A stretch of 32,331 bases of DNA from Natrinema thermotolerans DSM 11552 (lineage in GTDB: Archaea > Halobacteriota > Halobacteria > Halobacteriales > Natrialbaceae): the NCBI GenBank assembly GCA_000337115.1, contig AOIR01000063.1:31287-63617 (forward strand), written 5' to 3'. How positions within the stretch are numbered: the stretch's first letter is position 1; the number at the start of each line of letters is the position of its first letter. The translations under genes were made by a program, and so were the position numbers. Of this stretch, positions 5,589-9,017 are shown in pieces. Below the pieces are notes generated by a model. The model had not been told where the DNA came from. It worked only from the letters and a program-made list of their open reading frames with translations, and searched no databases.

Positions 5589-6506
5589 TTAATTAAATAG
5601 ATCAAAACACTTCCGCCGAATTTTACCACCGACGCTGAATGCTCTGGGGCCGATAAGAGCTAATAAAAGGTACAATATGCGGTGAGATGTGGGTTCGCGT
5701 TTCAAAGAGCGAAAATAGTACTTTATAGATTCTTTATGATCGCCACGCTTAATCGCTGCCCAACCTCGGATTTCATCCCACCGAGCTAGAAAAGCTTGGT
5801 GGATGCGTGGATAGTTTGTTATTTCTCCCCTATATTTTTCCAGTATATCTCCCCTCATATTGGCGTGTCTTTGGGTGTCTGATATATTATCACCATGTAC
5901 AATTCGTTTGACCAGCGGTTCATCTATATATTCAAATTTATATTTTTTTGCGAGACGAATACTCAAGTCCCAGTCAACGCCGCTAACTAAGTCTGGATCG
6001 AATCCGCCTACATCCTCAAAACAGGCCTTCCTAATCATATGACCAGAATGTGGATTAAGTTTCCATCTCGACAATACTTCTGGATAGATGTCACCTCGTC
6101 TTTTCGGGTTAAATTGTTGTACTATAGTTCCATTGTCAACAACTACACCTCCAGTATAAACAACTGCATATTCCGTACCTAATTGTTCCATTAGGTCGAC
6201 TTGCTTTTCGACTTTCTCAGAATTCCACCTATCATCATCGTCAAGAATACAGATATATTTCCCCTCAGCAAATTTAGCACCTCTATTTCGACTATAGGAG
6301 ATACCACGATTGCACTCATTATGTAAGATGTTTACGTCAGACCGTTTCTCATATACGCTTAATTCAGAACGTGTACTGTCCGTTGAGCCGTCATTGACGA
6401 CAATAACTTCAAGATTATCGTAAGTCTGGTTAAGAGCCGTCTCAACTGCGCCTTTAATAAACTCTGATCGGTTATATGTGGGTATGACAACACTTACACC
6501 AGCCAT
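5589..6506 (-). CDS. GT2-family (GT-A) glycosyltransferase
   Basis: A 305-residue inverting glycosyltransferase of the GT-A fold. It starts VSVVIPTYNRSEFIKGAVE (nucleotide-binding strand), has VNDGSTDSTR at about residues 38-46, and the metal-binding acidic cluster ILDDDDRW at 87-94. GGFDPDLVSGVDWDLSIRLAKK is the usual acceptor-side ED/WD region. There are no membrane spans, so it works as a soluble or peripheral enzyme on the cytoplasmic side, using a nucleotide sugar to extend a lipid-linked glycan. The ATG at 6504-6506 follows an A+T-rich stretch just left of an IS remnant. The 5' flank of the gene was probably shortened by that insertion. Codon use is strongly A+T-biased, typical of this island and unlike the genes after 14,000. 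Confidence 0.9.
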   Translation of the reverse strand: MAGVSVVIPTYNRSEFIKGAVETALNQTYDNLEVIVVNDGSTDSTRSELSVYEKRSDVNILHNECNRGISYSRNRGAKFAEGKYICILDDDDRWNSEKVEKQVDLMEQLGTEYAVVYTGGVVVDNGTIVQQFNPKRRGDIYPEVLSRWKLNPHSGHMIRKACFEDVGGFDPDLVSGVDWDLSIRLAKKYKFEYIDEPLVKRIVHGDNISDTQRHANMRGDILEKYRGEITNYPRIHQAFLARWDEIRGWAAIKRGDHKESIKYYFRSLKREPTSHRILYLLLALIGPRAFSVGGKIRRKCFDLFN

Positions 6507-6556: not shown

Positions 6557-7256
6557 GTGTTTAGTTTGTAGCATTCCGCCAGACGGCGAAGGCTTGGAGC
6601 CACGATCCTGCGGTTGATGGGTTAGCGTGGCTGAAACAGTTTGAGAACGAAGAGGCACGGCGTTTTATCTCTCAAAAGATACGTTCGACAGCATTCCGAT
6701 TTCCGTGTTTTTCGTATCGAAATCGGAGTCCGTGTCGATGGAGTGCTGTCTGGAGATGCTAGACGCCATCGACAAGAAACACGGCGTCTTCGACATCGTG
6801 CTTCTCCGGAGTTCTTGCAGAAACCGTTCAGTCAATGCGGTTGTAGACGTCGAGAACAGCCGTATATGGAGAATTCTATTCGTTTCGGGATCGACTGTAG
6901 CGTACAGCCAATACCGGTGATCATCGATTTGAATCACGGTCTCGTCGAGCGCAACGTGATTCGGAGTCGCGTCAGTTGCTAGCTGTAGATCGGCTTTCTG
7001 CACCCAATCATGAATGTCCATGCCAAACGGCCTTTCGCGATCGTTCGACACCGAACTTTTCGAGTTCTCGAACGGTATTCGAAAGCGATAATCCAGCAAG
7101 ATGGAATCGAATACCGAGTTCCAGTAGCTGACGCGGTGTCCGCTCTCGCTCCACAAAGCTCAAATCGATCCAGTCGCTACGCTCGCTGAGGCGGTCGATT
7201 TTTGGCATGGACACCACAAAATCATGCCGCCTCACTTTTCAACCTTAACTAAACAC
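6557..7256 (-). mobile_element. IS6-type insertion sequence remnant, 700 bp
   Basis: The element is bounded by a perfect 10-bp inverted repeat, GTGTTTAGTT at 6557-6566 and its complement AACTAAACAC at 7247-7256, giving a 700-bp unit, the usual size for haloarchaeal IS6-type elements. It encloses one transposase reading frame, now broken. The 8-bp flanks (TAGGGATT left, GGCAGACG right) do not match, so no target-site duplication is visible. Its right edge abuts the middle of a different IS6-type transposase, whose first part is missing. Confidence 0.75.
6561..7208 (-). pseudogene. IS6-type (DDE) transposase, degenerate
   Basis: The N-terminal part (7208 to about 7027) reads MPKIDRL, then GIRFHLAGLSLSNTVRELEK and VERSRKAV, the HTH region of haloarchaeal IS6 transposases. 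The catalytic part continues in another frame with HDWVQKADLQ, ALDETVIQIDDHRYWLYATV and VDPETNRILHIRLFS (first catalytic Asp in DET). The frames are separated by a 13-bp insertion at about 7013-7025. A 1-bp loss near 6815 shifts EKHDVEDAVFLVDGV out of frame; a TAG follows, and a later CGA to TGA change interrupts NAVERIF-REIKRR. The end is TNATAA-like at 6561-6563. With two frameshifts and two stops the protein cannot be made, so the copy is dead unless acted on in trans. Confidence 0.82.
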
Positions 7257-7710
7257 GGCAGACGAGACTGTGATCCAACTGAATACTGAGCAGTATTGTC
7301 TGTACGCCGTCCTCAGAACGCTTTGCGTTCTAATGGGCTGCGAAAATCGCAAAGCAATTTTCGAACGCAGTTGACCCCGAGACAAACGAATTGCACCATA
7401 CAAAGCTTGAACCGACAACAACGAAGGTTCTCGCTCATTCGTTTCTTACGGAACTTTCCGAGAGACACGACGTCTCCGACGCCGTGTTTCTCGTCGATGA
7501 ATCGCATTCGTTACAAGATGCATGTCAGCGTCATGGCTTCGATTTCAGATACGAGAAACATGGAAATCGGAATGCTGTTGAACGTGTCTTTCGAGAGATA
7601 AAACGACGAACTCTCCGTTTCTCAAACTGCTTTAGCAATGCCGAAGCAGAAACTGCTGACGACTGGCTCAGATCGTTCAGCTTCGCATGAAATCAGCTTA
7701 TCTGAACACT
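7257..7710 (+). pseudogene. Second IS6-type transposase, 5'-truncated and interrupted
   Basis: The frame starts abruptly at the edge of the preceding IS with ADETVIQLNTEQYCLYA, i.e. at the first catalytic Asp, so the HTH half is gone. After a 58-bp insertion it resumes VDPETNELHHTKLEPTTTKV, then RHDVSDAVFLVDESHSLQD (second Asp) and GNRNAVERVFREIKRR (catalytic Glu). The last codons FAWNQLI are cut by a TGG to TGA change at 7688-7690. It belongs to the same superfamily as the neighbour but is clearly a different sequence and lies on the opposite strand. The right end of the element is probably near 7710 (GAACACTACC), judged only from position after the ancestral stop. Confidence 0.8.
7310..7367. 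repeat. 58-bp double-hairpin insertion inside the transposase remnant
   Basis: Removing 7310-7367 restores the transposase codons for Tyr-Ala-Ala-Val-Asp-Pro, so these 58 bp are an insertion. They contain two adjacent hairpins with 3-nt loops: AGAACGC-TTT-GCGTTCT at 7315-7331 (perfect 7-bp stem) and CGAAAATCGC-AAA-GCAATTTTCG at 7341-7363 (10-bp stem with one mismatch), separated by AATGGGCTG. There is no coding capacity. The layout resembles a small palindromic non-autonomous element (MITE/REP/PATE-like); which transposase mobilises it cannot be said from one copy. Confidence 0.6.
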
Positions 7711-7748: not shown

Positions 7749-9017
7749 TCAGTTATATCTCTCTGCGGACCCAACGTGGTCGCTAACAAGTTGAGCTGAT
7801 TGACTGGACTCATTTTGAACAGTTGGAAGTTCTGACCGAATTGTTTTGGTAATAGAGGTGCGGTTGGAGAGAGCGTCGTCAACAATTTGATGAAGAGATT
7901 CTTCATCCACATCATTGATATCGATCATATAGTCTAGTAGGCCGAACTGTTCCATCAATCCTTTAGTTTTGAATTGATACTGGATTGCTACAACCGGGGT
8001 TTCTGCCATCATAGCTAAAATGTTAGAATGCATCCGCATTCCGATGTGTAAGTCCATCTGTTCATAAATCTCAACCAGATCTTGCGGCGTATATTCACCG
8101 GTAAGAATCTGTACTTCGTCCCGTTGTCCATGTTCCATATGATTAACAACTTGTCCCGCGATAAGCCGATCATCGTTATGGTATCCTGCTAAGCTGGTAC
8201 AGGTTGAAGCAAATACGACGTTTGCGTTCTTTTCTTTGACTAACCAGTCCGCAATATCTGCAATAGTCTGAGCGTAGTCATCGACACTCATGCCCGCATC
8301 GGTATGACTCCACTCTCTAACAGAGATACTTACCGTAAAAACATTTTTGTTAGGAAGTGTATCTGACGCACTCAAGGTATCCAAAAGTGATTCTCTATCT
8401 GTTTGGGGACTTATTGAAAATGCAGCGTCTGCTGTGAAATAAGCTGGAGTGGATACACCCAAGTCTTCTACTATCTCTTTTGACTTTTGATCACGTGTGA
8501 TGATCAGATTAGTTTTGTCAAGGACTGATTTTGTCATCCGCCGGTACGGCTGGCGATCAAACGGCCCAAGCGTCTGGGCGTATATAACAATAGGCGTGTT
8601 TAATTGGCTGAGGAAATAATGTTCCCAAAGAACCCCCACCTTCTCTGGAAAGTAAACGTCAGTCAAGAATTGCCCTCCTGTGGAAATAACCAAGTCAGCA
8701 TCAAGATATGGTTGTATGTTCCCTTTATTCTTAATATAGTCAAACCCGGGTGGAACCATACCCCGGTTGAAAAATGGGCTGGTCAAAGATAGATATGCTC
8801 GTGCGGCGTTCTTTTTTGATAACCCCCATCGAAATCCTGCTAGCACCTGTGATTCCGCATCGATTCCATGAACTAATTCAGCAGCTTGCGGATTTTCCGT
8901 CATCACTGTTATATCAGCGTCAGGATACACCTCTTCTAACGATTGATAGACACCTTCAAGAATCGCGGCATCCCCGCGATTCGACGCACAATAGTAGTCC
9001 GTTATTAGAATATTCAT
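7749..9017 (-). CDS. Polysaccharide pyruvyl transferase family protein (WcaK/CsaB-like)
   Basis: A 422-residue cytoplasmic protein. The start MNILITDYYCASNRGDAAIL carries the N-x-GD motif of the PF04230 family. ADLVISTGGQFLTD, NTPIVIYAQTLGPF, NLIITRDQKSKEIVEDLGV and the late MRMHSNILAMMAETPVVAIQY with the conserved H and GLMEQFGL are the other family landmarks. Members of this family transfer pyruvate from phosphoenolpyruvate as a ketal onto a sugar of a surface polysaccharide or lipid-linked glycan; some are glycosyltransferase-like, so pyruvylation is family knowledge and not proven here. It lies 88 bp downstream of the sulfatase-like gene on the same strand, in line with the flippase, and is probably co-expressed with them. 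Confidence 0.88.
   Translation of the reverse strand: MNILITDYYCASNRGDAAILEGVYQSLEEVYPDADITVMTENPQAAELVHGIDAESQVLAGFRWGLSKKNAARAYLSLTSPFFNRGMVPPGFDYIKNKGNIQPYLDADLVISTGGQFLTDVYFPEKVGVLWEHYFLSQLNTPIVIYAQTLGPFDRQPYRRMTKSVLDKTNLIITRDQKSKEIVEDLGVSTPAYFTADAAFSISPQTDRESLLDTLSASDTLPNKNVFTVSISVREWSHTDAGMSVDDYAQTIADIADWLVKEKNANVVFASTCTSLAGYHNDDRLIAGQVVNHMEHGQRDEVQILTGEYTPQDLVEIYEQMDLHIGMRMHSNILAMMAETPVVAIQYQFKTKGLMEQFGLLDYMIDINDVDEESLHQIVDDALSNRTSITKTIRSELPTVQNESSQSAQLVSDHVGSAERYN

Follow-up and report, generated by a model that had tools for sequence, protein, structure and literature searches.

RAYTs are the presumed movers of REP elements. A separate group, the CGTC-tagged REPs, has been described from five bacterial phyla only and includes RPE-4 and RPE-6 of Rickettsia and dRS3 of Neisseria; its members are defined by a terminal unpaired CGTC (or TGTC/CCTC), mostly form head-to-head dimers and lack a repeat-flanked transposase gene, and their hairpins have an 8-9 bp stem that starts with A-T pairs, a loop of 4-5 nt and a CCA-like tail (Di Nocera et al., 2013; PMC3733652). 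Among haloarchaea, the SMR-A repeats of Haloquadratum walsbyi (HqIRS42/43/55) are about 110 bp long, with prominent terminal inverted repeats and a mobilisation that is unexplained, and the PATEs share near-terminal palindromes with IS605-type transposons and have a target oligonucleotide of 4-6 bp at their left (PMC3119063). The movement of both the CGTC-type REPs and the Haloquadratum SMR repeats is an open question in the papers describing them (PMC3733652; PMC3119063). Archaeal Y1 proteins have been reported as being of the IS200 type only (PMC6006769).

The window considered here is a stretch of 32,331 nucleotides from Natrinema thermotolerans DSM 11552, in which a 58-bp double-hairpin element (7310-7367, plus strand) reads TCCTC-AGAACGC(TTT)GCGTTCT-AATGGGCTG-CGAAAATCGC(AAA)GCAATTTTCG-AACG. 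Hairpin 1 (AGAACGC-TTT-GCGTTCT, 7315-7331; defined by sequence and by pair counts over 37 copies) is followed by the 9-nt spacer AATGGGCTG (7332-7340), for which the family alignment A1 has GATGGGCTG or GATGGGCCG, then by hairpin 2 (CGAAAATCGC-AAA-GCAATTTTCG, 7341-7363; defined by sequence and covariation) and by the right-end tail AACG (7364-7367), whose reverse complement is CGTT; sister copies end in GACG, which corresponds to CGTC. The target dinucleotide CG lies immediately to the left (7308-7309) and the same CG closes the element at 7366-7367, leaving the boundary ambiguous by 2 bp; all of these features are on the plus strand. The coordinates and two-hairpin anatomy given in the first-pass annotation were thus correct as read from the sequence. 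The complementary TTT and AAA loops to which it drew attention are present in the window copy, but they are not conserved: loops vary freely among copies, their complementarity here is incidental, and a kissing interaction between them was rejected given the differences from copy to copy. One C.A mismatch interrupts hairpin 2 in the window, and this hairpin is perfectly paired in a relative (locus L037) that has its copy at the same site. The covariance model R1 assigns the window copy to the family with a score of 60.4 bits (E 2e-16), a value that is not independent of the model, as this copy is part of the alignment from which R1 was built; the folding of the 81-nt stretch by itself is unremarkable (z -1.45).

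The element interrupts a remnant of an IS6-family transposase gene, the left part of which (7264-7309, plus strand) reads ..DETVIQLNTEQYCLYA and the right part of which (7368-7690, plus strand) has residues, encoded by 7391-7690, that match NF033587 transpos_IS6 (E 5.1e-21). Excision of the element restores the transposase frame, giving TAC GCC GCA GTT GAC, or YA|AVDP at the junction, and a transposase that reads ..EQYCLYA|AVDPETNEL... A second, inverted remnant of an IS6-family transposase (6665-7156, minus strand; NF033587, E 5.7e-19) lies about 400 bp away and carries no element; the joined flanks align with it without a gap at the junction (minus strand, near 6898). The proposal that these 58 bp are an insertion is borne out both by the restored codons and by this empty site, and the possibility that they are native sequence in all copies of the insertion sequence is answered by other copies without the insert. 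The two remnants, in inverted orientation, adjoin each other (6560-7700) and are flanked by a glycosyltransferase-like gene (5589-6506, minus strand) and a polysaccharide pyruvyl transferase-like gene (7749-9017, minus strand), both named from a reading of the sequence.

An initial look at the host genome gave a similar left half on contig C62, in a context with the same two-hairpin plan, and a weak one on C59. Across the host family, the pattern of hairpin 1 has 119 matches in 53 of 125 genomes, and the reversed pattern has none. The upstream CGTCC and hairpin 2, which are outside the search pattern, recur at almost every haloarchaeal pattern match, and bacterial matches to the pattern are without either. 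With R1, the host genome yields two strong copies and several weaker ones, and matches are present in 261/292 haloarchaeal genomes and 75/77 genera, where copy numbers per genome are lower bounds since only the best candidates were scored. In a phylum-wide sample the model matched 38 of 43 haloarchaeal genomes versus none of 204 others. Named plasmids of Natrinema, Haloterrigena, Haloferax, Natronomonas and others carry the element, the match being mostly unannotated; the phage records searched gave no match, and an Rfam search at element loci returned none either, apart from one sub-threshold HgcC hit (L015). The element has no coding capacity. We consider it very probable that the 58 bp belong to a haloarchaea-wide family of non-autonomous mobile mini-elements with two imperfect hairpins and outward-facing termini of the CGTC/CGTT type.

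The members of this family follow the plan CG|TCCTCAGAAC-hairpin1-GTTCTGATGGGC-hairpin2-(A/G)ACG and are mostly 52-60 bp long. Hairpin 1 extends in the family to CC-TCAGAAC..GTTCTGA-(T bulge)-GG, a single bulged T separating the two parts of the stem. The left end is CGTCCT in 92/108 copies; half of the CGTC tag is part of the target, and pairing of its CC with GG is possible; read on the other strand, the right end is CGTT or CGTC, the former being commoner, and the two ends are only partly inverted (TCCTC../..GACG). Over 37 different copies, 92.4% of the cells of the two-hairpin structure are paired, compared with 30-40% in slid controls, and changes on both sides of a pair number 82 versus 27.3 (sd 3.8) in shuffles. 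Both hairpins are kept by compensatory changes and the structure is constrained. Hairpin 2 and the tip of hairpin 1 hold most of the variation; the lower hairpin-1 stem hardly varies, in part because the first collection was gathered by the hairpin-1 pattern, which inflates conservation within it. A single genome has two IS6-type genes 1 kb apart (L210) with an element at the same site in each (1773-1830 and 2800-2857), and the hairpin-1 loops of these two copies are exactly inverted, GGCTATGCC versus GGCATAGCC; family members may often differ by such inversions.

For 84/126 distinct copies there is an empty-site homologue, which runs across the junction and has no insert; most of these alignments are exact and gapless, with a minority of weaker ones. 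CG stands at the left of 113/126 copies, at the right end of 123/126 and on both sides of 112/126. The left pair is CA in two copies (L158, L192), for which the empty homologue has CG, indicating that this CA decayed after insertion. Clustering of the flanks gave about 54 distinct sites, with 27 copies in one cluster; copies within one IS site may share descent from a single insertion, and the copies are therefore not all independent. Insertion is precise; the sites, which are unrelated to one another and number in the dozens, almost always adjoin a CG. The search for further copies at unrelated loci with empty sites, suggested in the first-pass annotation as evidence of mobility, thus found many, and its description of a compact palindromic element, possibly mobile, REP/PATE-like and not tied to a known transposase, holds; the conserved tetranucleotide that it envisaged to the left of each copy did not materialise, only the dinucleotide CG being conserved. 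One copy is an element inside another element (L019), and the same inner element is carried by L138, where both flanks are TG and not CG. Stems of at least 7 bp were present at 15/54 sites and at 71/540 control CG positions (rank test, p 0.075); this signal is weak and a general preference for palindromes is not claimed.

Frequent hosts are themselves mobile: IS6 genes, IS3-like elements (identified from C-terminal sequence only), TnpB genes and the palindrome at the left end of IS200/IS605 transposons. Insertions into near-terminal palindromes of this kind are present in L019, L020, L033, L296 and others, and an intact IS200/IS605 left end in the Natrinema genome of the window, CCCGCCGTTCACGGCG|GGCGTGAATCG (L300), is the empty form of the site that is filled in L020, L296 and others. 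Within the left-end palindrome of L296 (908-1018) two elements of opposite orientation stand back to back; together they span about 111 bp and contain inverted repeats, which recalls SMR-A. The 58-bp copies in IS6 genes are out of frame. The reading frames of several TnpB genes stay open through one or two elements (L291 1681-3042, L084, L133, L135, L293), and these proteins may thus be functional despite the inserts. In one genome (G154) the element is carried by a dispersed repeat, TTTATAAATAG..CCTCCAAAGCCCCAGTCGCGAGG.., that is some 300-450 bp long and occurs at least 18 times (L273-L290); the element's high copy number there was rejected as a sign of recent transposition, since the copies ride inside the larger repeat. 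The same repeat contains a different double-hairpin insert, TCGCCCGAAAATC..GGGATGACGAGAGAGC..CTCGAACCA, which some copies of the repeat have and others lack; its empty site reads TG|CG, without duplication.

Conserved cellular genes are also hosts. The copy on contig C62 sits in the gene for fibrillarin (FlpA; NF003278), where it adds 18 residues, DVQQTESAAAHQNSESSED, with boundaries ambiguous by one D; this insert is found in the host and one sister species (2/29 congeners) and is absent in 27/29. In-frame copies were confirmed likewise in TrpB (TIGR00263) and Kae1-Bud32 (NF007174), and another lies in a MinD-like ATPase whose match to TIGR01969 is below the cut-off of that model; judged by sequence, an ABC ATPase, a UvrD-like helicase, a histidine kinase and several TnpB proteins are likely further in-frame hosts. 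Among copies spanned by a long open reading frame 20/31 have a length that is a multiple of three, as against 22/95 of the rest (Fisher p 4.9e-5), and almost every conserved gene reads its copy on the same strand and in the same frame, yielding ..AAHQN..SED. Selection for a soluble linker that does no harm would produce this bias in length and frame: the in-gene copies that survive would mainly be those divisible by three in length and read so as to give the soluble, acidic peptide. Conserved archaeal proteins, fibrillarin, Kae1-Bud32 and TrpB among them, have in this way repeatedly gained 18-20 residues from mobile DNA.

How the element moves can be addressed with less assurance. Our best guess, tentatively held, is that a Y1/HUH-type nuclease acting in trans, which might be the TnpA of IS200/IS605 or an unrecognised enzyme, recognises the element in the form of a folded single DNA strand; it would make its left cut at CG^T and its right cut at (A/G)ACG^ and rejoin the element at another CG, and the CG would then be both the retained target and the last two bases of the element. 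This reading is favoured by the resemblance to REPs, by the T bulge of the hairpin, by the constant bases at the ends and by the insertions into hairpins at IS200/IS605 ends. Counting against it, Y1_Tnp was undetected in several element-rich genomes (G025, G043, G048, G094, G128, G021). The domain is present in 8/20 of the listed element-free genomes versus 193/272 (p 0.01), a difference that may merely reflect a poorer mobilome. No gene consistently flanked by elements was found among the closely spaced copies examined (L210, L291-L293, L296-L298). A REPtron was rejected for these loci, as the paired copies resolved there had inserted into an IS6 gene, a TnpB gene and IS200/IS605 left-end sequence, the second copy in L293, upstream of TnpA, being outside the resolved set.

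A DDE or other double-strand transposase could instead be moving a tiny MITE with partly inverted CGTC ends and a 2-bp duplication of the CG target. The partial inversion of the ends (TCCTC../..GACG) fits this, as does CG on both sides of 112/126 copies, and the nested copy at a TG site (L138) has TG at both flanks as a duplication would give; yet the inverted identity amounts to just a few bases, no transposon bearing these ends was found near copies in the loci examined and among the subset of IS ends searched, and the unrelated double-hairpin insert of L273-L290 has a clean TG|CG empty site without duplication. Moreover, the two stems differ in sequence and each is nevertheless kept by compensatory changes, for which a transposase binding terminal inverted repeats has no need, and we regard such a MITE as rather unlikely. 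Slightly less probable still is a terminal-only PATE, that is, an IS200/IS605 (IS1341) transposon with its core deleted, reduced to two end palindromes and moved by IS605 TnpA: mobile-looking ones of 52 bp have been described in Haloquadratum (PMC3119063), and a size of 52-60 bp with no inverted repeats and no clear target duplication would suit one, whereas the left-end palindromes of L299 and L300 differ from the element and are its targets rather than its ends, its two hairpins are different from each other, and its target is conserved only as CG.

The presence or absence of the element could also reflect precise loss, with no present mobility, of an old structured sequence that hitch-hikes in insertion sequences and larger repeats. 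One IS site is indeed shared across genera, with 27 copies in a cluster, and at least 18 copies in G154 lie inside a larger dispersed repeat; about 54 site clusters with empty homologues inside and outside insertion sequences, together with the FlpA insertion in just 2/29 congeners and those in several other conserved genes, make this quite improbable. We give least credence, very little indeed, to an element acting at the level of RNA, intron-like or bypassed by the ribosome, and so removed or skipped at expression. Reading frames are precisely restored on its removal, its hairpins are strong and RNA-capable, and the 58-bp copies in IS6 genes are out of frame; the copies in conserved genes, however, are multiples of three, open in one favoured frame and thus most simply translated, and both hairpins are local, with no pairing of start and end into an archaeal bulge-helix-bulge on inspection of the alignment. 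An archaeal intron was rejected on the same ground, the ends of the element not pairing with each other. Because the family is so clear, with a CG target, dozens of empty sites and a strong structure, and has tractable hosts such as Haloferax, the movement of CGTC-type REPs and SMR repeats becomes testable, and the covariance model R1 could serve genome annotation.

Set beside the described systems, the family has the following in common with the CGTC-tagged REPs: paired hairpins with outward CGTC-type termini, a head-to-head dimer plan in the aligned copies, heterodimeric stems, variable loops, in-frame copies in genes and no known dedicated transposase; some REP families, too, are inserted in palindromes. 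It differs from them in that stem 1 starts with T-A and then C-G, loops are often 3 nt, TGGGC follows stem 1 and CGTT outnumbers CGTC at the right end. Like SMR-A it is haloarchaeal and transposase-free, has no clear target duplication and is inserted in near-terminal palindromes of IS605-type transposons, but it is 52-60 bp long with partly inverted ends, a separation made by description and not by sequence; an inverted tandem of two elements, as in L296, would approach SMR-A in size at about 111 bp with inverted repeats. With PATEs and terminal-only IS605 derivatives it has in common that it is short, palindromic, haloarchaeal and free of inverted terminal repeats. It is, however, no PATE in the published sense, for where tested its hairpins show no link to IS605 transposon ends: the IS200/IS605 left ends of the few transposons tested (L299, L300) do not match R1, and the target is CG rather than a tetra- or pentanucleotide. 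The GTAG REPs and their RAYTs (REPtrons) likewise feature hairpins with a short terminal tag, often as dimers and thought to be cut as single strands, whereas here neither end has GTAG and the paired loci examined have no RAYT-type arrangement. The Rickettsia palindromic elements are similarly mobile palindromes tolerated in frame inside conserved genes; they differ in host domain and sequence, and the haloarchaeal family is also very common in insertion sequences. We therefore assign the family to none of the CGTC-tagged REPs, SMR-A or PATEs, and treat it as an archaeal variant of REP/RPE-type elements. On balance we lean towards seeing in it a haloarchaea-wide class, undescribed in the open-access literature, of mobile hairpin pairs compatible with protein coding, which targets CG and the palindromes of insertion sequences and whose in-gene copies encode one recurrent acidic peptide: an archaeal counterpart of the CGTC REPs and RPEs.
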